From Pseudomonadota bacterium (lineage in GTDB: Bacteria > Desulfobacterota > Syntrophorhabdia > Syntrophorhabdales > Syntrophorhabdaceae): a stretch of 33,004 nt of DNA. Below are positions 9,132 to 21,238 of this stretch, in pieces. The stretch is taken from the NCBI GenBank assembly GCA_026388315.1, contig JAPLKA010000091.1:1-33004 (forward strand), given 5' to 3'. Positions within the stretch are counted from its first letter, which is position 1. Each line of letters starts with the position of its first letter. The notes below the pieces were generated by a model that ran no database searches, was not told the origin of the DNA, and saw only the letters and a program-made list of their open reading frames with translations. The position numbers were made by a program, and so were the translations under genes.

Positions 9132-11858
9132 CTAATCAAATTCGAATTTATAATACAGGTCAACGCCGGTTTGTATACCGGTTTTGCTCTCCACCTCGAG
9201 ACGCTTTGAAAAGGAGTATCTGGCGGTAAAAAGATACTCATCAGTAAACAATGATCGGCCATACGCAACGTAAAGCCCCGGTGCGATGTATTTTCCTACT
9301 GTTGCGAGTGATTTTGTCATTGTTGAGCTTCCCGGGCTTGAGCCTGCGGTGCTTGTCCAGAAACTTCCCGTTGAGCCCACTAAGCCTGTTCCGGTCGTGC
9401 CTCCTGTGCCGGTCCCGCCAATAGTTTTCGTCTCCACTCCAAGGGTATCAATGCCAATCTTATGCATCAATTGATTCTGTGCAGAACCAACCTTATTGCC
9501 GACGAGAAAGGCACCGGCGCCCTGTAGCAGGAGTGATGTCTGGCTTGTCTCACCTTCAACCTTTAAGGGTCTGCCGAGGACAATATAGGAAAGAATATCC
9601 TGCTCCGGCATAAAGGGCTCTGAATACAATTTTACAAGAGGAGATTTCGGTGTTCCTGTTACTGTTATGCCTGCCTTTATCTCATCGAACCTGCCGGGAT
9701 TAACTTTTCTGAGCGCCATAATGTCAAGGGATGCAAGTTCAACCGGCCTGCCTCCGAAAACAATGCTGCCCCTGGTGACATCGAGTTTGGCCCCATAGGC
9801 GTTATAATGTCCCCTGACAATCCTGATCTGGCCATCACCAATAATCCTGTCAATGTTCTGTCCTGAAAGGAGCACCTTTCCGTCTAATTGTATCTCAATC
9901 CCCGGTCCTCTGATCTGCACCTGGTTACCCAGGCTGATCGATATTTGTGTGTCAAAATCGAATGGAAGCGGGTGTTTGACTTTTTGAGGTGCATCAACAA
10001 TGATTATGTCAGGGCTTGTGCGTTTCACCTCTCTGCCCTCACCATAACGTATCAATGCCTCAGGCACTTCTATTGATCCCCGTAATAATACCCGTTTAGT
10101 GTCACCCTCGAAATTAAGATCAGGATTAACCCATACCTGAATTTCCGGCACATAAATCGCCTGAAATCTTTTACCGTTAAGATTCCCTTTATAACGGACA
10201 ATTTTTGAGTCTTTCAGCCAGATCGTTGCAGATCCCTGAATGTTCCCCTGCCCCGAATAAGCCTGAAACGAAGCAATATTGATATGGTCCTGCGCTAATT
10301 CAGCCTCCATCCCCATATCTTTAATATGGATTCCTGCCGTAGGAAGAAAGGCGCCAGCCTTTTCAAGTCGCAACCATCCTTTATAATCCGGAGTTTGCCA
10401 GGTACCGGAACCAGCTACATGGAAGCTTACCTGTCCCTGAGTCTCTTCAATAAGCCCCGGAAAGATAGCACTTACCACACCTTTTTCCCGAATCCTGCCG
10501 CTGCTCTCAAACTTCATAGGGCCATTCGGCTCGATTTTAGCTGGAAGACGTGCCTGCACTGGAAATTGAAACATACCCTTTACGTGTCCATAACTTGGCA
10601 GTACAAAAACAAGATTACCCTTCAGCACAGACTCTTTCCATACGAAGTTCAGATCGACCTTTTCAGTGGAAACAGTAATTAACCCTTCTTTTCTTTTCCA
10701 CAAAAACTGGCCGTTCGAGATCTTCAATTCGCCTGTTGTCTCAAACCTTGATCCGGGCATGAGTTTGCCGGATAACGTTCCCGATAATTGCCCCTTTGTA
10801 TCTATTGACTCCGGCAACCATGGCTTAAAAATACTTATATCGATATTCTGCCATGTACCCGACAACTCTCCCGAGTCCGGCATTTCGGAACGTGCCGGTT
10901 GGTTTGATGTAAACCGTGTCCGGATACTGCCTCCACCGTCAAAACCTGCATCAAATAACGAAGTGAGACCCTTTTCGTCCCATTTCAATGAAGCATCGGC
11001 TTTAGCGATCCGGATTGCAAGAGGACCACTGGTAAAACTACCATTCATTGTGGCATTTCCTGTCATTTTCACCTTGCTGTTCTGAAGCCATTCACTCTCA
11101 AAAGAACCGGAAAAACTGCCTGAAATATTCAATTTGTTCAGCAAGGGATTAATCCGGGAAAGGTTCAGATTTTGCCACTTTGTCCTCACATATCCACGAA
11201 GCGGCTCAAAATTGAGAGAGACTTCAGCATCCAGTCTTTCCGAGGCGCTACCAGTTAAAGAGAAAGAGCCGACGCTGAAATGTCCGGCGCCTATTTTTAA
11301 TGGACAAGAACTTGCAAGACTGAATGGACCGTAATGTGCGTCTACCCCGGCAAGCTGAGTAATGGCGCCCTCCCAGGCATCATTCATATAGCCGCCTGCC
11401 AACGAAGCCTTAACCTTGTTGTCCTGCCAGATTGATATTATTTGAATGGTGTGCTGATGAACTTTGCCGTTTACGTTGATTCCCAATGAGCCGGTTTTCA
11501 CGTCTCCATAGCTGAGATTGTTCGCTTTTATCCTTGCAAAAATGCTGTTCTCGCGGTTGCCATCCAGCTCGGCTTCTATATCTGCAGAACCTATTCTTAC
11601 CTTTCCCGAGGAAATTGAATACCCATTGCCTTTCAATGTACCTGCAAGTTTCCCTTTTTGCCAGCGCGCCCATCCACGAGCCGAAAAGCGCCCCTTTGAA
11701 TCTGGTATAAGCCCTGCAAGATCACTTATCCGTGCCTCATAATTAAGGCGCTCCTCCAGAATACCGCTCGCAGAAAGATCAAAGCCGTCGCCGCGAAGAT
11801 GTAATGCATCAAGATGCAAAATGCCGTTGCGCCAGTTTGCATCGACTCGTCCGCCCAT
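9132..11858 (-). CDS. tamB: Translocation/assembly module TamB, C-terminal part (frameshifted gene)
   Basis: These 908 residues are the long repetitive beta-strand body and C-terminal DUF490/TamB domain of a TamB/AsmA-like protein. The diagnostic C-terminus is present: GDGQIRIVRGHYNAYGAKLDVTRGSIVFGG, then ASLDIMALRKV, ITVTGTPKSPLVKLYSEP, MPEQDILSYIVLGRP and a last beta-strand block ending in FEFD. TamB proteins span the periplasm as a hydrophobic groove, act with TamA and are linked to outer-membrane lipid and protein traffic. The ATG at 11858 is an internal Met, not a natural start; the gene continues in another frame to 13078. A Gly/Thr/Ser-rich insert near residues 790-820 (GTGTGGTTGTGLVGSTG) is unusual but in frame. 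Confidence 0.88.
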   Translation of the reverse strand: MGGRVDANWRNGILHLDALHLRGDGFDLSASGILEERLNYEARISDLAGLIPDSKGRFSARGWARWQKGKLAGTLKGNGYSISSGKVRIGSADIEAELDGNRENSIFARIKANNLSYGDVKTGSLGINVNGKVHQHTIQIISIWQDNKVKASLAGGYMNDAWEGAITQLAGVDAHYGPFSLASSCPLKIGAGHFSVGSFSLTGSASERLDAEVSLNFEPLRGYVRTKWQNLNLSRINPLLNKLNISGSFSGSFESEWLQNSKVKMTGNATMNGSFTSGPLAIRIAKADASLKWDEKGLTSLFDAGFDGGGSIRTRFTSNQPARSEMPDSGELSGTWQNIDISIFKPWLPESIDTKGQLSGTLSGKLMPGSRFETTGELKISNGQFLWKRKEGLITVSTEKVDLNFVWKESVLKGNLVFVLPSYGHVKGMFQFPVQARLPAKIEPNGPMKFESSGRIREKGVVSAIFPGLIEETQGQVSFHVAGSGTWQTPDYKGWLRLEKAGAFLPTAGIHIKDMGMEAELAQDHINIASFQAYSGQGNIQGSATIWLKDSKIVRYKGNLNGKRFQAIYVPEIQVWVNPDLNFEGDTKRVLLRGSIEVPEALIRYGEGREVKRTSPDIIIVDAPQKVKHPLPFDFDTQISISLGNQVQIRGPGIEIQLDGKVLLSGQNIDRIIGDGQIRIVRGHYNAYGAKLDVTRGSIVFGGRPVELASLDIMALRKVNPGRFDEIKAGITVTGTPKSPLVKLYSEPFMPEQDILSYIVLGRPLKVEGETSQTSLLLQGAGAFLVGNKVGSAQNQLMHKIGIDTLGVETKTIGGTGTGGTTGTGLVGSTGSFWTSTAGSSPGSSTMTKSLATVGKYIAPGLYVAYGRSLFTDEYLFTARYSFSKRLEVESKTGIQTGVDLYYKFEFD

Positions 11859-13078
11859 CGAAAAGCTCCGCTGGAATCTGCGTTAACCTTCCCCTTCCAT
11901 TCAGGAATTATTTTAGAAGGGTTGAGGTCCCTGCCCTTCAAGCCTCCTGTGAGATAAAAACCACGAATCCAGGACATCTGCAGGAATCCCTCAAGGGTTC
12001 CATCAAGGAAACCTCCGCTAATTTCTTTTAATTGTATTTGGCTTGAATCACCTTCAAAAGCGCTATTAAGACTAATATTCTTCCATGTATTATCTTCATT
12101 TCTGATATTAATTCCCCCTTTGTAATGTCTGGGGTTGCCCTTTACGTGCATGTTACCGGAAAAGGATGTTTTTATGTTCAATTCTTTTGAAAGGTTAATA
12201 TGGGAAAGTTTAAGCTGCAAATCAAAAATCGATTCGTTAGAAGCAAAATCCAGCATACCATCAATGTGTGCCTCTCCCTGCCGCCCCTTTTCAGTAAGGA
12301 GCATTTCCTTAAATTTAATGGTGTTATTTGTTATGGCAATATTGCCCTTCAAATAAAGAAGGTCTTTGCTGCCTGACATCGCTGTAACGGTAATGGGTCC
12401 TGAAACATGTTCATGGTTCTGCGCCGGCTTTAACTTTATGCTAACAAGAAGGCTTTCAACAGTTCCAACAGGCTCCTGCGCTATTAATTTTACGTTAGCT
12501 GATAATGCAGGGCGGACAAATCCTGCACCTGCACTCCCCTCCAGCTTTCCGAAGGGCAACTCTATTGCTGCGTCTTTCACGGTAAGGGTGCCAAAACGCC
12601 AGAGTATCTCTCCCTGGAAATTCCCTGTTCTTGACTTTTCTTTGTCCTTTGAATAGAAGACCATCCTGTCAAAAGAGAGATTTTTTATACGCCCGCTTAC
12701 CAATGAAAGCCATCCCGGAACCTTTGGCCACACGATGTCCACCAACGCATCGGGATTAAGGTCAACTATCGAAACATCCTGGAATACCGCTTTTTTAAAT
12801 ACTACAGTCCCTGCAGTAAGGTAGGCCGGCTGTAACGAAACCTCCATGGTTTTTACCCTGATTTCCCATCCCGGGAAATTGACCTTTATTCCCTCGATTC
12901 TGAGATTATCTGTCAGGGTGCCCGTTACCCTTCCAATGTCAATTTTCGCAGAAATAAACCGTGTTATCACTGTGAGCACAAAATGGTTGCCTTTGCTTGT
13001 GCCGACCATCCATCCTATTATTGAAGTAACACAAAGAATAATGGCGGCGATTACAGAAAGGATGATCCAGCGCTTCAC
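11726..13078 (-). CDS. tamB: Translocation/assembly module TamB, N-terminal part (frameshifted gene)
   Basis: This is the N-terminal part of the same TamB protein. A single membrane anchor (WIILSVIAAIILCVTSIIGW) is followed by beta-strand-rich AsmA-like sequence (FISAKIDIGRVTGTLTDNLRIEGIKV and similar). Homology runs to about SSGAF and then turns into an unrelated tail, while the next frame continues at GGRVDANW. I take the GTG at 13078 as start: it is followed directly by a Lys/Arg and the anchor, and a run of seven G stands 9 bases upstream. The open frame extends to 13153, but that extension is encoded by a dispersed repeat. Joined, the two parts make about 1315 residues, normal for TamB. 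It follows tamA, its usual partner. Confidence 0.85.
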   Translation of the reverse strand: MKRWIILSVIAAIILCVTSIIGWMVGTSKGNHFVLTVITRFISAKIDIGRVTGTLTDNLRIEGIKVNFPGWEIRVKTMEVSLQPAYLTAGTVVFKKAVFQDVSIVDLNPDALVDIVWPKVPGWLSLVSGRIKNLSFDRMVFYSKDKEKSRTGNFQGEILWRFGTLTVKDAAIELPFGKLEGSAGAGFVRPALSANVKLIAQEPVGTVESLLVSIKLKPAQNHEHVSGPITVTAMSGSKDLLYLKGNIAITNNTIKFKEMLLTEKGRQGEAHIDGMLDFASNESIFDLQLKLSHINLSKELNIKTSFSGNMHVKGNPRHYKGGINIRNEDNTWKNISLNSAFEGDSSQIQLKEISGGFLDGTLEGFLQMSWIRGFYLTGGLKGRDLNPSKIIPEWKGKVNADSSGAFRWADESMQTGATAFCILMHYIFAATALIFLRAVFWRSALIMRHG

Positions 13079-13084
13079 CTGTAA

Positions 13085-13172
13085 ATACCCCCCCAGAAAA
13101 TTCCAAATCCCAAGCACCAAATCCCAAACAAATTCAAATTTCCAAAAGTACACCTGCCTGCCGGCAGGCAGG
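13085..13172. repeat. Dispersed intergenic repeat ending in a 20-bp perfect palindrome
   Basis: The low-complexity phrase built from AATTCCAAATCCCAAG-like units (about 13098-13147) is followed by the perfect palindrome CCTGCCTGCCGGCAGGCAGG at 13153-13172. It sits in the 136-base gap between tamA and tamB. Similar phrases are common between genes in some environmental bacterial genomes. Confidence 0.7.
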
Positions 13173-13214
13173 AATGTTCAAAACAGAACCTGTCATTGGG
13201 ATTTATTCTCATCA

Positions 13215-15002
13215 TTATATCCTGATCCCTATAGTAAAATGTATCCGGAAATCCGGATTGCTCACACCAATCTGACGTGCAAGATCAAGATTCATGGAGC
13301 CTATCGGTGTGTAGTAGCGAATTCCTACTCCTGCGCCCTGCGCAAGGTCCATATTGTTGAAATTGTTAAAGGCATTTCCTGTATCGTAAAAGGCTGCCAC
13401 ACCCCAGTTGGAACCAATAGCCCTCTCCAGTTCAAAATTTCCTACGAGCATATGCTTCCCACCGATCACATCCCCGTAAGCATCAGTGGGCCCCAGGGAT
13501 TTGTATGCATATCCCCTGACGCTGCGGTCACCACCTGCAAAAAACCGGAGAGAAATAGGGAGATCTTCTGTTGATTCGCAGATAAATGTTGTTCCCAGAC
13601 GCCCCCTCACAAGAAAGGAAAAACGGCCGGGCAAACTTACAATCATCTCTCCGCTTGTCAGATACTGGGCAAAGCTTGTGGATGAACCCAGCACTTCGTT
13701 GGTCCCTCGTAATTCCAGGTCATAGTAGTATCCTTTTGTCGGACGCATGAGGTTGTCGTATTGCCGGCTTGAATAGCGGACTCCCGGCAAGACGATAAAG
13801 GCGTTCGTTGTTTGGTCGCCTGCCCAGGAATTTTCTTTTTGCATCCTCAAGTATAACGATCCTAATCGTTCATGACCCAAAGTCCGCACATGCTCCCCTT
13901 CCAGCGATATGACGTTAGTTGTCTGGTCGGAAAGGTTTTCACGTTGAAGCCCGAATGTGAATAAGGTAAAGCTTTTAAAATCTTTTTTGTCAGGAAGAAT
14001 ATACCGGGCTGCAAAACCCTGGAGTTTTTCGCTCAGCCTTATCTCTGTTTCAAATTTATGCCCTGAAGCGAGAAAATTAAAATCGTTATAAATTAATGTA
14101 CCCCTTACCCCCGTATCCGTCCCATATCCGAGGCCAAATTTAAACCGTTTTGGTGGGGATGAAAAAAGTTTAATTTCAATAGGCACACGACTATCCTTAG
14201 CCTCTTCTTTTAATGGGTTTATCGTTACTTCCTTAAAACGGTCAGCACTGATAAGATTAAATTGTGTATTGGCAATTTTTTCATAGGAAAAAACGTCACC
14301 TGATTTGAAATCAAGGAAACGTTCAAGAAAAGCTACCGGGTAGAGAGGCATACCCACAAAGTTAACATCTCCAAAGCGGTATTGTGGACCTGTTTGAAAA
14401 ACGAGATTAATTTCTGACGATAATGTGTCCAGGGCAATCTTAATGGTATGTATAGAAAAATCGGCATCAAGATAACCAAGGGCAATTGCTTTGCTCTTTG
14501 TCAATCCTTTTATCTCTTCGTACTTATCTTGCCGGAGGATATCTCCTTTATGCAGGGGGAACCGGTCAACAAATTCAGTAAGCGCCGGCTCGCGCGAACC
14601 GGCGCCCTCGATATATATTGACACTTTATCAATATATACAGGGTCGCCTTTCGTTACATTGACATGCAACTCATACGGACCTTTTTCAGGCGTTTCCATT
14701 GCAACAGAGATATCCGGTTTGTAATACCCGAAAACTTCGAGGGCATCTCTTACCTTTTCGGGTATCTGACGCTCAAAGCGTGTCAACCATGTCATATCTA
14801 CTTTTCCATCTTTTATTAAACCTTCAGGGAGTTTCAGTGCAGTTTTGACGTTTTGAAGTTCTTCGCCTGATAGCCCGTCAATTGTAACTGTTACTAATGC
14901 CGGTTCATCGGCAGCATATGATAATGTTGCAAAGATACATATACAGAGAACAATAATGTTCCGCTTCAGCAATATAGAAATGCCTCCATCCCGGATTAAC
15001 AT
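13215..15002 (-). CDS. tamA: Outer-membrane assembly protein TamA (Omp85/BamA family)
   Basis: This 595-residue protein has a signal peptide (cleavage near SYAAD) and about three POTRA-like repeats (to about residue 270, e.g. GDPVYIDKVSIYIEG and QYRFGDVNFVGMPLYP). A 16-strand-type barrel follows, beginning near KRFKFGLGYGTDTGVRG. The family-defining lid motif is present as FAGGDRSVRGYAYKSLGP, and the last strand is FRIHFTIGIRI. It would sit in the outer membrane and work with TamB, encoded just downstream on the same strand. The ATG at 15002 has no Shine-Dalgarno site. An in-frame TTG at 14972 has GGAGG 10 bases upstream and starts right before the signal peptide, so the true start may be there. 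Confidence 0.88.
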   Translation of the reverse strand: MLIRDGGISILLKRNIIVLCICIFATLSYAADEPALVTVTIDGLSGEELQNVKTALKLPEGLIKDGKVDMTWLTRFERQIPEKVRDALEVFGYYKPDISVAMETPEKGPYELHVNVTKGDPVYIDKVSIYIEGAGSREPALTEFVDRFPLHKGDILRQDKYEEIKGLTKSKAIALGYLDADFSIHTIKIALDTLSSEINLVFQTGPQYRFGDVNFVGMPLYPVAFLERFLDFKSGDVFSYEKIANTQFNLISADRFKEVTINPLKEEAKDSRVPIEIKLFSSPPKRFKFGLGYGTDTGVRGTLIYNDFNFLASGHKFETEIRLSEKLQGFAARYILPDKKDFKSFTLFTFGLQRENLSDQTTNVISLEGEHVRTLGHERLGSLYLRMQKENSWAGDQTTNAFIVLPGVRYSSRQYDNLMRPTKGYYYDLELRGTNEVLGSSTSFAQYLTSGEMIVSLPGRFSFLVRGRLGTTFICESTEDLPISLRFFAGGDRSVRGYAYKSLGPTDAYGDVIGGKHMLVGNFELERAIGSNWGVAAFYDTGNAFNNFNNMDLAQGAGVGIRYYTPIGSMNLDLARQIGVSNPDFRIHFTIGIRI

Positions 15003-15778: not shown

Positions 15779-16036
15779 CCTTACCTATGTGCCGGTGTCT
15801 GTCCACATTGCTGTCAAGCATTTTGTTTATTGAGCTTGCTGTCATTTTGATACCGGTTTCCACTCCTTTCTCTCCCATGACCGAGGGTTTTTAACGAATA
15901 TCCGTATCACACCGTAGTGTAATCTTTTCGATTCCCTTAATGTCCATTCAAAGCCTTTTGAAATTGAAATATGGGAACCTGTCTTCCTGTTGCATAAAAG
16001 ATATTGCATAAAATGCTTGCAAATAATACAGGAAAA

Positions 16037-17308
16037 ATGCAGAATAGTTGCATTATGGCTAAAGAGACAATCGGTATCATTGTTGGCGGCGGTCCGGCAC
16101 CCGGAATCAACGGGGTCATAAGTTCTGCAACTATAGAGGCTATCAATCAGGGAAAAACAGTGCTCGGAATTATGGGTGGGTTCAAAAACCTCTTCGAAGG
16201 TAACGTGAACTGCGTTTTGCCCCTCACCATTGAAGACGTATCAAGACTGCATGCAACGGGCGGCTCAATACTGCGAACATCTCGCGATGCCCCCGAAAAT
16301 GCAAAAGAGAAATTTAAGATACTCATGGCAACGCTAAAGAAATTAGGTATAAAGTACCTTATTACCATAGGTGGCGAAGGTACTTGCTTCATGGCAAAAT
16401 GGATAGAGATGGAAGGCAGGGGATCAGTAAATGTTGTGCATACACCAAAAACCATCGACAACGATATTCCTATTCCTGGCGGTATCTCAACCTTCGGGTA
16501 CCAGACAGCCCGTCATGTAGGTGTTGAGCTTGTCAGCAACATTATTGAAGATGCCCGGACTATGGGGAGATGGTATTTTATCAGCACTATGGGAAGACAT
16601 ACAGGCCATTTGGCCCTGGGGATCGGGAAAGCCTCAGGGGCTACAATAACACTTATCCCCGAAGAATTCCCGGAGGCTAAGGTATCGATACGCAAAGTAG
16701 CTGACATCCTTACGGGATCAATAATAAAAAGACACACCATGGGAAGAGACTATGGTGTTGTAATAATTGCTGAAGGCATCGCTGAAAGATTCGATATGGA
16801 TGAGCTTGCCAAGTGTGAAAGCGTTGAGAAGGATGAAATAACCGGTAAAATAAGATTGCCCGATATACAGCTTGGCAGGGTCTTAAGAGAAGTGGTGCGA
16901 AATAACCTGCGTACAATCGGTATCGCTTCTCCTATTGTCAGCATGAATATAGGGTACGAATTAAGGGCAGCGCCTCCTATTCCATTCGATATTGAATATA
17001 CGAGAAACCTTGGGTACGGGGCAGTGCGCTACCTTCTTAAGGGTGGTACCGGTGCAATGATCGTGGTATACGAGGGACGCATTATCCCTGTTCCCTTTGT
17101 TGAGATGTTTGATTCAAAGGGTCGGATAAAGATTCGAAAAGTTGATATAAATTCTGAGCTTTATGAAGTTGCAAGGAAATACATGATACGGCTTGAAAAA
17201 GAGGATTTTGAAGGAGATCGCCTTAAAAAACTTGCGGCCACGGCCAAAATGAAACCTGAGGAATTCCGCACACGATTCAATTACATAATCGAAGAACCGA
17301 CCCGTTAA
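16037..17308 (+). CDS. 6-phosphofructokinase
   Basis: This is about 423 residues of the PfkA superfamily, catalysing phosphorylation of fructose 6-phosphate in glycolysis. GIIVGGGPAPGINGVI is the N-terminal phosphate-donor loop, IGGEGT corresponds to E. coli IGGDGS, and PKTIDNDI holds the catalytic TIDND. MGRHTGHLALGIG and IPEEF are substrate-site motifs. At the two positions that separate donors, it has Gly (the 104-type position, ATP-like) and Lys before TIDND (the 124-type position, seen in PPi enzymes and in plant or trypanosome ATP enzymes). I lean to ATP, not firmly. The start is uncertain: the frame opens at a TTG at 16004; ATG 16037 has AGGA close upstream, and ATG 16055 is possible. 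No operon partner is seen. Confidence 0.85.
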   Translation: MQNSCIMAKETIGIIVGGGPAPGINGVISSATIEAINQGKTVLGIMGGFKNLFEGNVNCVLPLTIEDVSRLHATGGSILRTSRDAPENAKEKFKILMATLKKLGIKYLITIGGEGTCFMAKWIEMEGRGSVNVVHTPKTIDNDIPIPGGISTFGYQTARHVGVELVSNIIEDARTMGRWYFISTMGRHTGHLALGIGKASGATITLIPEEFPEAKVSIRKVADILTGSIIKRHTMGRDYGVVIIAEGIAERFDMDELAKCESVEKDEITGKIRLPDIQLGRVLREVVRNNLRTIGIASPIVSMNIGYELRAAPPIPFDIEYTRNLGYGAVRYLLKGGTGAMIVVYEGRIIPVPFVEMFDSKGRIKIRKVDINSELYEVARKYMIRLEKEDFEGDRLKKLAATAKMKPEEFRTRFNYIIEEPTR

Positions 17309-17348: not shown

Positions 17349-18668
17349 TTACTCTGTTTTACCACTTATCTCTTCAGGATTTTTTCTTGAAAAGGGTATA
17401 TAGAATATTTTAATTTTCTCGCTGTCCATACCGAACAATCCGGAGAGGAATTCAAAACTGAATTTACCTTTCTCGTCTTTACATTCTATGAGAAATGCGA
17501 GTCTTGTCCTGTAATTCTCACCGTCATTTTCTGATGCTAAAAGACCGTAGAGGATATTAGCCGAAATTTTATCTTCAGTCTCAATACGTTCATAAAGAGA
17601 GAACAGCGGTCTAATAATTTTATCTGCTTCAGGCGCCCTTAGAGGCACAGGTGAAAGAACGCTGGTTCTCGTTACCCCTCCTTTTTTCCTCACTTCAAAG
17701 AAAGGCCAGACATTATAGAATATACCCTCCTCGTCTTCGATATACCGGTTTAATAATAAAACACGTTTCCTTACAAACCGCTCCTCTCCAGCATAATACT
17801 CCGATTCGTGATACCCGAAAGGCCACAGGAAACCGAACGTTTTATCCTTTTCTTTCCGTTCATTGTAGATTAAGGGAAAAATACTGTACCCTTCTGTTTC
17901 CTTGCCTTTTGTGAAGGAGAAAAAGGGCCAGAGGATATCCCATTTTTCTCTGTCAGGATTCTGCGTATGGGCATAGAATGGAAACATGATATAGTGTGTC
18001 GTCCTTGTTTTTGAGTCGTTTTCAGACCTTAAATAAAAAGGGATAGCATAGAGAGCACGGATGGGGTCATCAGTATCCAGATTTTTGTCATCCTTTGCAA
18101 AAAAGGGCCACAGGAAAAAACCTGTTTTTCTCACCCCTTTCTGCTCCCTGTATCCGGCAAGAGGCCATGCCTTAAATCCTTCAGTGTTCCCCGAATAAAC
18201 AGAGAAAAAGGGCCAGAGGATGTTGTGTTTTGTGCTGCCGTCCTTTTCGATATAACTGTACAGAGGCCACATAAAGAACCCCATTTCATCCCTGCCGAAT
18301 CGATCATACAATTTTCCAAAAAAAGGGAAAAATCCGAAATAACTCCCTTTCGGGGACTTGCCCCTGAATAGGAAGATAAAGGATGAGTCATTGTTTTCTT
18401 CATCGCCTTTCGACATGTAGAAAGGGACGAAGTAGGATTTGTCTTTCGTTATTTTACCGAAAGGATACAGATAGTTATATACCCCGCCGTCCACGGAGTC
18501 ATAGGAAAAAAGAAGCGGGCTGATAACAAGCCGGGTATTGTTATCCTGTTTCTTGTATGAAATAAAGCTGCCGAGATAACGCTTTTCATCATTAAATTCC
18601 CACGACAGGGGCCATAATGCATGGGCTGTTACCGGAAAGAAAAAGAGTAAAAGCAGAAATTTCCACAT
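17349..18668 (-). CDS. Exported WPFF-repeat protein of unknown function, last gene of the mla run
   Basis: This 439-residue protein has a signal peptide (LLLLFFFPVTAHA). I do not recognise a named family. Its body repeats a short pattern, aromatic-Pro-(Phe/Leu) after a hydrophobic strand: WPL at 134 and 168, WPF/WPFF at 152, 187, 247, 282 and 321, with weaker YPF, FPF, VPF, IPF and FPL versions at 69, 82, 115, 210, 230, 264 and 425. Charged, Lys/Asp/Glu-rich turns separate them, so an all-beta repeat or barrel-like fold is plausible. It starts 6 bases after the mlaD stop, which ties it to lipid transport at the envelope, perhaps as the outer-membrane side component. That role is inference from position. 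Confidence 0.75.
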   Translation of the reverse strand: MWKFLLLLFFFPVTAHALWPLSWEFNDEKRYLGSFISYKKQDNNTRLVISPLLFSYDSVDGGVYNYLYPFGKITKDKSYFVPFYMSKGDEENNDSSFIFLFRGKSPKGSYFGFFPFFGKLYDRFGRDEMGFFMWPLYSYIEKDGSTKHNILWPFFSVYSGNTEGFKAWPLAGYREQKGVRKTGFFLWPFFAKDDKNLDTDDPIRALYAIPFYLRSENDSKTRTTHYIMFPFYAHTQNPDREKWDILWPFFSFTKGKETEGYSIFPLIYNERKEKDKTFGFLWPFGYHESEYYAGEERFVRKRVLLLNRYIEDEEGIFYNVWPFFEVRKKGGVTRTSVLSPVPLRAPEADKIIRPLFSLYERIETEDKISANILYGLLASENDGENYRTRLAFLIECKDEKGKFSFEFLSGLFGMDSEKIKIFYIPFSRKNPEEISGKTE

Positions 18669-18674
18669 TAAACA

Positions 18675-19679
18675 CTAAAAGAACATACCGAATATAGTGC
18701 CAAGAATTGTAACGGGCGTCATCTCCTGGATACCTTCTGCCGCCTTCTGAACCTTTTTTACAGCCTTTTCTGTTTCAATAAACAGACTATCGTCTTTTGC
18801 CAATCTTCCCAATGTGCCTTCGCCTTTTTTAATCCCGTCTGTCAGATCTTTTATGTTTGTGATAGTTGCCTTTGCTTCGTCATATATTGCTTCGTCTTTA
18901 ACGAGTTTACCGATAGTCCCCTTGCCCTGTTCGATATCGGCAGAGATGTTTTTGAGGACACTTACCGCTTCTCTGGCATCGTTATATAATTTTTCGTCTT
19001 TCACAAGTAAGCCCAACGTACCCTTCCCTGACTCAACATCTTTTACCATCAGTTTTAACCCGGACATCGTTTCATCTACATTGGAAACAACCCGGCTTAT
19101 ATTGCCTTTGTTTTCTTTTATAAGGTTTTTAAAGTCACCGCTGACCTCCTGAAAATTTTCAATACCCTTCCTTATGTCAATCTTCTCCTTCTCACCTATG
19201 ATGCCTTTTAATTCACCCATCGTCTCACCAAAATTCTTTGCAGCTCCATTCACAGAAGCAAAGAGTTGTTCTAAATCAGGGGCTTCGGCAACATCTTGAA
19301 TTCTTCCGCCCCGGGCCAATATTTTTTGATCATTTCCGGGTGTAATTTCGAGGAATTTATCCCCAAGAATGCCCTGAGATCTAATGGAAATCTTGCTGTC
19401 TACAGGGATTTTCACGCTACCCCTTATGGTGAGCGTTGCAAGGGCTTTAAAACCATCAAGTGAAATTTTTTTAATTTTTCCAATCTCCACACCTGCAATT
19501 TTAACAGGTGTTTTCACGTCAAGCCCGGTTGCATTAATAAAAACAGCGGTAAGCTCATAGCCGTGCTCACTGAAAACTCCATATTTTCCGATTCTGAATG
19601 ACATATAGAACAAAATGAGTATCCCTATCAGAATCATAATGCCTACCTTTAATTCTGAAGAAACCATCCGGTTGCTCAT
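18675..19679 (-). CDS. mlaD: MlaD-like MCE domain protein, substrate-binding subunit of lipid ABC transporter
   Basis: This 334-residue protein has one N-terminal membrane segment (about 12-30). An MCE domain (about 38-115) contains AVFINATGLDVKTPVKIAGVEIGKI, VDSKISIRSQGILGDKFLEI and ITPGNDQ. A helical C-terminal region then carries three repeats of about 40 residues built on G(K/E)GT(L/I)G.LVKDE.LYD.A. Such long MlaD proteins form hexameric rings, and the tail may extend across the periplasm. The start overlaps the end of mlaF by 4 bases (ATGA), so the two are translationally coupled. It works with MlaE and MlaF to move phospholipids between the membranes; direction is not decided by sequence. 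Confidence 0.9.
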   Translation of the reverse strand: MSNRMVSSELKVGIMILIGILILFYMSFRIGKYGVFSEHGYELTAVFINATGLDVKTPVKIAGVEIGKIKKISLDGFKALATLTIRGSVKIPVDSKISIRSQGILGDKFLEITPGNDQKILARGGRIQDVAEAPDLEQLFASVNGAAKNFGETMGELKGIIGEKEKIDIRKGIENFQEVSGDFKNLIKENKGNISRVVSNVDETMSGLKLMVKDVESGKGTLGLLVKDEKLYNDAREAVSVLKNISADIEQGKGTIGKLVKDEAIYDEAKATITNIKDLTDGIKKGEGTLGRLAKDDSLFIETEKAVKKVQKAAEGIQEMTPVTILGTIFGMFF

Positions 19680-20440
19680 ATATCTCCCCCTGTAAAACCT
19701 GGTATTTTTGTTGCATTTAAAAATTCTTTTGTTGCTTCGTTGGTACTCCTCTTAATATCATAGGGGGTACCGTATTCAATGATCTTTCCGTTATAGAGCA
19801 TTGCAACCTTGTCAGCAATTCTGAACATGCCCAGTATATCATGACTTATGACGAGATATGTTTTTTTAAAATATGTCTGAGTTTGCTTAATTAAATCCAG
19901 TATTGTGAGTGAGATAATGGGATCAAGAGCGCTTGTCGGCTCATCAAAGAGTATTATCTCAGGGTCTAATACAAGCGCCCTGGCAAGCCCCACTCTTTTT
20001 CGCATACCTCCTGAAAGCTCTGACGGCATTTTTTCTGAGGAACCTGTTAAACCAACCTGTTTTAACCTTTCCTCAACGGTGCTCATAATCTCATTTTCAG
20101 TCATTTTTGTATGCTCGCGAAGCGGAAAGGCAACATTGTCGAAAAGATCCATTGAGTCAAAAAGCGCTGCCTCCTGAAAAAGCATTCCGAATTTCATTCT
20201 TATGTTGTTCATATCTCTTTCGCTGAGGGTCGTTGTTTCCACACCATCTATCCATATTTCACCGCTATCCGGTTTGATGAGGCCTATAACATTTTTCAGC
20301 AGCACACTTTTTCCACCACCACTCTTTCCAATAATAACGGTTATCTTTCCTGCTTCCACCTCAAGATTTATCCCATCAAGCACCTTCTGCTCACCGAAAC
20401 TTTTCTGTAAATTAATTATTTTTATTGCTATATTGTCCAT
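19676..20440 (-). CDS. mlaF: MlaF-like ABC transporter ATP-binding protein
   Basis: This 254-residue ABC ATPase has all motifs intact: Walker A GKSGGGKSVLL, Q-loop MLFQEAALFDSMDLFDNVAFPL, signature LSGGMRKRVGLARAL, Walker B EIILFDEPTSALDP and the H-loop LVISHD. The EAALFD and RVGLARA wording is typical of the MlaF/Ttg2A branch that powers MCE lipid transporters. The start lies 18 bases after the mlaE stop and the stop overlaps mlaD by 4 bases. No MlaB STAS protein is present in this run. Confidence 0.93.
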   Translation of the reverse strand: MDNIAIKIINLQKSFGEQKVLDGINLEVEAGKITVIIGKSGGGKSVLLKNVIGLIKPDSGEIWIDGVETTTLSERDMNNIRMKFGMLFQEAALFDSMDLFDNVAFPLREHTKMTENEIMSTVEERLKQVGLTGSSEKMPSELSGGMRKRVGLARALVLDPEIILFDEPTSALDPIISLTILDLIKQTQTYFKKTYLVISHDILGMFRIADKVAMLYNGKIIEYGTPYDIKRSTNEATKEFLNATKIPGFTGGDI

Positions 20441-20458: not shown

Positions 20459-21238
20459 TCAAAACATCAATGATGTAAGCACATAATCAGAAATCAATAT
20501 AGAGACACTTGAAATAACAACCGCTTCAGTTGTTGATTTTCCTACACCCTCTGCCCCGCCACTTGTATAAAATCCTTTGTAACAGGAAATCAAACTGAGG
20601 ATTATTCCAAAACAGGCTGCCTTTATAAGGCCATTGTAAATATCATCGAGATCCAGATGCTTTATTATTTTGGTGATAAATGCACCCTCATTAATACCCA
20701 GGAGTTTCACCCCCACAATATATCCCCCGAGGATACCAACAAAATCAGATATGATAGTCAATACGGGCAGCATAAAAAATGCTGCTACAACCCTCGGAAC
20801 AACCAGATATTTTACCGGATTAAGGGCCATTACCGTCAAAGCATCTATCTGCTCGGTAACTCTCATTGTTCCAAGTTCTGCAGCCATGGCCGAACCTGCC
20901 CTCCCTGTTACCATAAGGGCCGTAAGCACCGGACCGAGCTCTCTCGTCATACTCAATGCTACCGTTGCCCCAACAAGCCCTTCACCTCCAAACTTTCTGA
21001 AACCGTGATATGATTGAAGGGCAAGCACCATTCCGGTAAAAACTCCGGTAATGATTACAATAACGGAAGAATTTACACCGATAAATTCCATTTGTTTAAA
21101 GATATAGTTCAGCTTAAAAGGCCTTCTGAAGGTTTGATGTACGGTTTCAAGGAACATTGCCCCGATGCTTCCAAGTTCTTTCAAGGCTTCCGTAATTTGC
21201 AAGAAGGGATTGTAATGTATAGGCTTTTTACTGTACAT
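20459..21238 (-). CDS. mlaE: MlaE-like ABC transporter permease
   Basis: This 259-residue permease belongs to the MlaE/YrbE family. Hallmarks are FTGMVLALQSYHGFRKFGGEGLVG, ALSMTRELGPVLTALMVTGRAGSAMAAELGTMRVTEQIDAL and VVPRVVAAFFMLPVLTIISDFVGILGGY. The start overlaps the 3' end of alr by 11 bases, and mlaF begins 18 bases later. It forms the inner-membrane channel of the Mla-type lipid transporter with MlaF and MlaD. Confidence 0.92.
   Translation of the reverse strand: MYSKKPIHYNPFLQITEALKELGSIGAMFLETVHQTFRRPFKLNYIFKQMEFIGVNSSVIVIITGVFTGMVLALQSYHGFRKFGGEGLVGATVALSMTRELGPVLTALMVTGRAGSAMAAELGTMRVTEQIDALTVMALNPVKYLVVPRVVAAFFMLPVLTIISDFVGILGGYIVGVKLLGINEGAFITKIIKHLDLDDIYNGLIKAACFGIILSLISCYKGFYTSGGAEGVGKSTTEAVVISSVSILISDYVLTSLMF

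Follow-up and report, generated by a model that had tools for sequence, protein, structure and literature searches.

The exported protein encoded directly downstream of mlaD in the window, by which we mean the whole stretch of 33,004 nucleotides analyzed here, is probably a dedicated partner, on the outer-membrane side, of an MlaEFD phospholipid transporter that spans the envelope. We refer to this protein and its relatives as WPFF, after their repeats. The evidence computed here consists of gene linkage, a near one-to-one coupling with one type of MlaD, mutual exclusion with a domain fused to other MlaD proteins, and a conserved export signal. The role as an outer-membrane-side partner of MlaD is well supported by these genomic comparisons.

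Organization of the mlaEFD-WPFF operon

The gene order on the minus strand of the window is hemL, alr, mlaE, mlaF, mlaD and WPFF, with an overlap of 4 bases between mlaF and mlaD (Table 1). An earlier sequence-only reading had proposed an open reading frame of 439 residues starting 6 bases past the mlaD stop codon; this frame is real, and both its coordinates and the spacing were reproduced. MlaE was identified in NCBIfam with a score of 287.9 bits versus a cut-off of 212.2 (TIGR00056), and the MCE domain of MlaD in Pfam with 78.4 bits versus 25.1 (PF02470). Against the MlaD equivalog TIGR04430, the protein scored 126 bits, slightly under the cut-off of 135. The best match of MlaF had an E-value of 4e-64, which is likewise under the cut-off of the matching model (NF008809). 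By gene content, with a MlaE permease, a MlaF ATPase and the MCE domain of MlaD found together, the operon encodes a MlaEFD transporter.

Table 1. Features of the mlaEFD-WPFF region, in positions of the window.
Feature	Position	Strand	Description and basis
WPFF gene	17349..18668	-	439 codons, ATG start, exported
Putative signal peptide, WPFF residues 1-17 (...TAHA)	18618..18668	-	Type I-like; sequence and family survey
mlaD	18675..19679	-	334 aa; hydrophobic helix at the N-terminus, then an MCE domain, a long helical stretch and a hydrophobic tail at the C-terminus; Pfam, alignment, low-confidence model
MlaD C-terminal tail TPVTILGTIFGMFF	18678..18719	-	Feature co-occurring with WPFF; profile and alignment
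Three G(K/E)GT(L/I)G repeats of MlaD	18777..19028	-	Repeat count
mlaF	19676..20440	-	ATPase subunit; best match NF008809, below the NF008809 cut-off
mlaE	20459..21238	-	Permease subunit; TIGR00056
Phosphofructokinase gene	16004-17308	+	Convergent with WPFF

Beyond the phosphofructokinase gene, as seen from the mlaEFD-WPFF cluster, are tamA and tamB (11726-15002, minus strand). The tamB gene of the window (9132-13153, minus strand) is apparently split into two overlapping frames, 11726-13153 and 9132-11858, in a frameshift-like manner, which appears to be either an assembly error or a real break. In a relative of the same genus (locus L031), tamB is a single frame up to the end of the locus. 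Adjacency to tamA and tamB was observed in the window and, among the relatives, in a single one of the same genus; linkage to the TAM genes as a general trait was rejected, with no tamA match in 15 wider relative loci. In Veillonella, mla phenotypes are described as suppressed by tamB mutations (PMC10665443).

Distribution of WPFF and conservation of gene order

A search with the single sequence identified WPFF in 33 of 60 genomes, counting that of the window. Loci were returned for 30 of these, and in every one of the 30 WPFF follows mlaD on the same strand, even in relatives with as little as 29% identity. In many loci from the same family, the mlaD stop and the WPFF start are only a few bases apart. 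A profile search was performed on a phylum sample, a single draw of 297 genomes from the phylum of the window, many of them incomplete and with shared ancestry among them. WPFF was found in 95 of these genomes, distributed over 25 families, and mlaD was directly upstream (same strand, less than 600 bases) in 75 of the 95. The order mlaD-WPFF, whose conservation had been put forward as a check on the partnership, is thus conserved in other genomes.

Another eight genomes displayed a different linkage to mla genes; WPFF precedes mlaE in some of these, and is 4.7 kb from mlaD in one (G067). No mla linkage was seen within the stretch read in the remaining 12 genomes, of which three represent contig edges and nine belong to families f30 (seven genomes) and f40 (two genomes). 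The linkage is ambiguous in one of the eight (G272), where an 808-codon frame joins MlaD and WPFF (L074); its junction is masked by N letters, and the fusion was rejected as a claim.

Two irregular copies were observed. The WPFF gene of G028 (L026) contains internal stops and is matched in two pieces, as might result from gene decay or from misassembly; the neighboring mlaD frame is closed and has kept its tail. G170 has another WPFF-like frame (L099:4704-5531), partial and 276 codons long, with no mla gene detected in the 10 kb stretch that contains it. None of 14 pattern matches in viral contigs was a WPFF relative, and no WPFF match was found in plasmids.

Coupling of WPFF to a tail-type MlaD

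The WPFF-linked MlaD proteins are long, with open frames of about 260–430 codons in the loci read, and they end in a hydrophobic tail with the consensus E-x-T-P-(I/V)-(T/S)-x-L-G-T-x-x-G-x-F-F. The proline of the tail and three repeat glycines were invariant in 31 MlaD examples. Ahead of the tail, a G-x-G-T-L-G repeat was present in one to six copies in 83 of 84 MlaD frames and absent from one. This copy number varies between genomes, and possibly tunes the length of a periplasmic needle.

A profile of the 60-residue MlaD end was built from WPFF-linked mlaD genes only, and is therefore tuned to these proteins. With the matches sorted by E-value, tail-reaching matches were obtained in at least 95 of the 297 genomes, 94 of them nearly full length and one (G272) partial. 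Among the matches listed, 93 genomes contained both the tail-type MlaD and WPFF, two contained only WPFF, two only the tail, and 200 neither (Fisher p about 3e-72, ancestry ignored). All four mismatches are located at contig edges. WPFF is 60 and 243 bases from a contig edge on the upstream side in the two genomes without a tail match (G062 and G248, respectively). As for the two genomes with only the tail, a 92-codon piece of WPFF runs off the contig after mlaD in G201, and the contig begins at mlaE in G083; two genomes of the same family as the latter have WPFF upstream of mlaE.

The coupling includes nine genomes in which the two genes are apart. In 24 genomes that lack WPFF, 17 of which are relatives at the level of genus, family or order, 30 MlaD frames out of 45 matches were read, and the tail was absent from all 30. 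Chemistry aside, this coupling shows a functional partnership, as judged from genome sequences.

Export and membrane anchoring

The description of the protein as exported agrees with both the window and the family. The N-terminus of the window protein is hydrophobic and ends in AHA ahead of LWP. We surveyed the N-termini of 108 WPFF members, of which seven were skipped because they were cut, masked or had a core start that could not be placed. A hydrophobic N-terminal segment was present in 99 of the 101 members scored, suggesting that export is conserved. A lipobox pattern was found in 26 of the 101, of which some were doubtful by eye, while a few likely ones were missed; anchoring in a membrane is likely in some lineages.

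The outer-membrane end of Mla systems in the phylum

MlaC was identified in 169 and MlaA in 152 of the 297 genomes in the phylum sample. Either protein was present in 21 of the 95 WPFF genomes, including the window's own, as compared to 153 of the 202 others. The exclusion is weaker by family than by genome, since MlaA or MlaC was found in some WPFF genome of 9 of the 25 WPFF families. Both situations occur within a single genus (g154): G229 carries MlaC and MlaA but no WPFF, and G292 carries WPFF but neither MlaC nor MlaA. PF03886, which we take to be the PqiC family, was found in 143 genomes, namely 27 of the 95 with WPFF and 116 of the 202 without. Because 21 and 27 of the 95 WPFF genomes also contain these proteins, WPFF is not a simple replacement of MlaA/MlaC or PqiC.

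The window's own genome contains a single MlaC and a single MlaA match, both on contig C81, where they belong to a separate mlaE-F-D(161 aa)-C-A cluster. Two more MCE genes are located on C94 and C49, each with a PF03886 gene at most 0.8 kb from the MCE match; these are the two PF03886 matches of the genome, and none is on C91. Thus, with WPFF, MlaC/MlaA and PF03886 twice, each of the four MCE loci has a nearby candidate partner for the outer-membrane end. The earlier remark that neither MlaA nor MlaC is visible is correct for the window but not for the organism, in which the cluster on C81 is a canonical mlaEFD-C-A cluster.

Six genomes without WPFF, MlaA and MlaC contained MlaD frames of 463–642 codons with a C-terminal domain of approximately 190 residues. 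By architecture and description only, this fused domain resembles the barrel of Veillonella parvula MlaD. A profile built from the six genomes, all from the phylum of the window, matched 52 genomes of 19 families; in the six, the domain was seen to be joined to the MCE domain, and most other matches were in frames of similar length. No genome and no family shared the fused domain with WPFF (95 genomes, 25 families). MlaA or MlaC was also present in 14 of the 52 genomes. The 123 genomes that lack both MlaA and MlaC comprised 74 with WPFF, 38 with the fused domain and 11 with neither.

Sequence and fold of WPFF

The window protein had been described as containing about 15 aromatic-Pro-(Phe/Leu) motifs, a number that falls between the counts obtained with a strict and a loose definition. 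We counted 12 strict motifs, as compared to a mean of 1.0 and a maximum of 7 in 10,000 shuffles, and 17 hydrophobic-Pro-hydrophobic motifs, one of which is within the signal peptide (mean 3.7 and maximum 11 in 10,000 shuffles). The motifs are spaced by 16–22 residues across residues 114 to 282, and the repeat unit consists of a short greasy segment with a proline at its center, followed by a charged turn.

That no family is recognized holds for Pfam, NCBIfam and PDB sequences, where the protein gave no matches. A profile of 29 WPFF members gave no match to PDB sequences, and the 29 members matched only four weak, scattered families in Pfam, each in at most two members. Among the 29, no match was found to MlaA (PF04333) or MlaC (PF05494) at E-values up to 0.1, or to PF03886 (ABC_trans_aux). 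No title or abstract start among the papers listed names the family, in a search with subscription journals and preprints outside its scope. An AlphaFold2 model of WPFF from four sequences had a pLDDT of 31, which is uninformative because MlaD at equal depth reached only 37, although the fold of its MCE domain is known. A prediction of WPFF as soluble and outside the envelope, named earlier as a possible refutation, was not obtained.

Could WPFF be an integral outer-membrane beta-barrel, that is, the Veillonella-type MlaD barrel encoded as a gene of its own? The two would occupy the same slot, never both in one genome, and a barrel fused to a long MlaD is described as a precedent (PMC10665443). 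Moreover, approximately 23 short hydrophobic strand-like segments of 6–10 residues can be placed by eye in WPFF, many of them centered on aromatic-Pro-(Phe/Leu). However, we consider this explanation doubtful. A comparison of the WPFF profile with the fused-domain profile, which represents this phylum and not the Veillonella sequence, gave a hhalign probability of 0.1% and no similarity. The WPFF sequence shows no alternation. The autocorrelation of hydrophobicity at lags 1 and 2 was +0.38 and +0.31 for WPFF, unlike both the fused MlaD domain (0.00 and 0.03) and TamA (-0.12 and 0.07, a single sequence). No peak was seen at 160–180 degrees, a weaker measure that separates the controls poorly, as the single-sequence fused domain is also peakless. 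The loops on the two sides, with strands placed by eye, are equally long (9.1 and 8.5), and the lipobox pattern seen in 26 of the 101 scored members also argues against a barrel.

Co-variation was analyzed in 103 of the 108 WPFF sequences (effective number 84), and was higher between sequence-adjacent strand segments than between distant ones. The antiparallel and parallel registers were close (0.94 versus 0.87) and not separated, turn centers were not significantly above strand centers (p 0.10), and no first-last signal was seen. Because both faces of the greasy segments are hydrophobic, the loops are equal and the autocorrelation differs from that of TamA and the fused domain, we do not call WPFF an ordinary outer-membrane barrel. 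Of the original suggestion, an outer-membrane partner for MlaD, the partnership is upheld by gene order, export signal and tail-type coupling; the place of WPFF at the outer membrane is putative, and the sequence pattern is unlike that of an ordinary barrel.

A soluble periplasmic lipid carrier, shuttling from MlaD to the outer membrane in the manner of MlaC, is improbable. It would agree with the strand segments being greasy on both faces and with the anticorrelation to MlaC, which was found in 19 of the 95 WPFF genomes versus 150 of the 202 others. However, the lipobox pattern in part of the members points to anchoring, none of the 29 members matched PF05494, and a shuttle would be needless if MlaD is long enough to span the periplasm. 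It is very unlikely that WPFF has some other function in the envelope and only shares the operon: alr and hemL in the cluster are unrelated to lipid transport and some WPFF genes in f30 and f40 are away from mla genes, but the coupling to the tail-type MlaD persists in genomes with the genes apart, which shared transcription cannot explain.

Proposed mechanism

As established for MCE proteins, MlaD assembles into a hexameric ring on the MlaE-MlaF transporter. For the dedicated partner that we consider probable, MlaE and MlaF would power the transfer at the inner membrane, and the long MlaD, to judge from known MCE proteins, would form a hexamer with an MCE ring, extended by a helical needle across the periplasm. 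The approximately 180 residues of helix predicted in a low-confidence model of MlaD could be enough for this crossing. We infer that the hydrophobic C-terminal tails would dock on WPFF, which would be exported either by its signal peptide or, for certain lineages, probably in the form of a lipoprotein. Placed in or on the outer membrane, WPFF would receive or deliver phospholipid through greasy, beta-rich surfaces, and would take the place held elsewhere by MlaC and MlaA, by the MlaD-fused barrel, or by PqiC/MpcA. More tentatively, WPFF may cap the MlaD needle with a new beta-rich fold, whose strands, greasy on both faces, would form a hydrophobic conduit or groove for the MlaD tails and close the lipid path from the inner to the outer membrane.

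Comparison with known systems

The nearest published arrangement to the WPFF operon is Brucella MpcEFDA, which as described also combines a MlaEFD-type ABC transporter with a helical needle on the MCE protein and a partner encoded last (PMC12436622). This partner, MpcA, is a PqiC-like outer-membrane lipoprotein proposed to cap the MpcD needle, in a system described as having no MlaC homologue (PMC12436622). Unlike MpcA, reported as a PqiC homologue (PMC12436622), none of the 29 WPFF members matches PF03886. By analogy to MpcA, the best reading is that WPFF, as a new and unrelated protein, would fill the outer-membrane slot in a trans-envelope MlaEFD system.

The Veillonella parvula system is similar in that MlaEFD is described as operating without MlaA and MlaC, with a long MlaD that reaches the outer membrane (PMC10665443). 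There, a C-terminal domain of MlaD itself provides the outer-membrane part (PMC10665443), whereas WPFF is a separate, unrelated protein. According to the same source, most MlaD are of the long form, only some 10% of MlaD sequences have a predicted barrel, and most long MlaD are without a barrel; one possibility it mentions is that yet-unidentified proteins aid in barrel folding (PMC10665443). The canonical Mla system of E. coli (MlaFEDB, MlaC, MlaA) shares MlaE, MlaF and the MCE domain of MlaD, but has a short MlaD, the shuttle MlaC and the lipoprotein MlaA, as does the system on C81 in the window's own genome. In E. coli PqiABC, a periplasm-spanning MCE protein also meets an outer-membrane lipoprotein (PMC10897342). 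It differs in that PqiA is described as lacking an ATPase domain and PqiB as having three MCE rings (PMC12436622), and in that PqiC is an octameric toroid (PMC10897342).

WPFF represents an unnamed family that is near one-to-one with one type of MlaD in 25 bacterial families, and the 14-residue MlaD tail provides a concrete target for mutation. The family is relevant to how the many long MlaD proteins without a barrel work at the outer membrane. If WPFF is indeed a fold that caps the needle, it would mean that an outer-membrane end of Mla was invented independently in this family, and would explain how a long MlaD without a barrel reaches the outer membrane in the phylum of the window.
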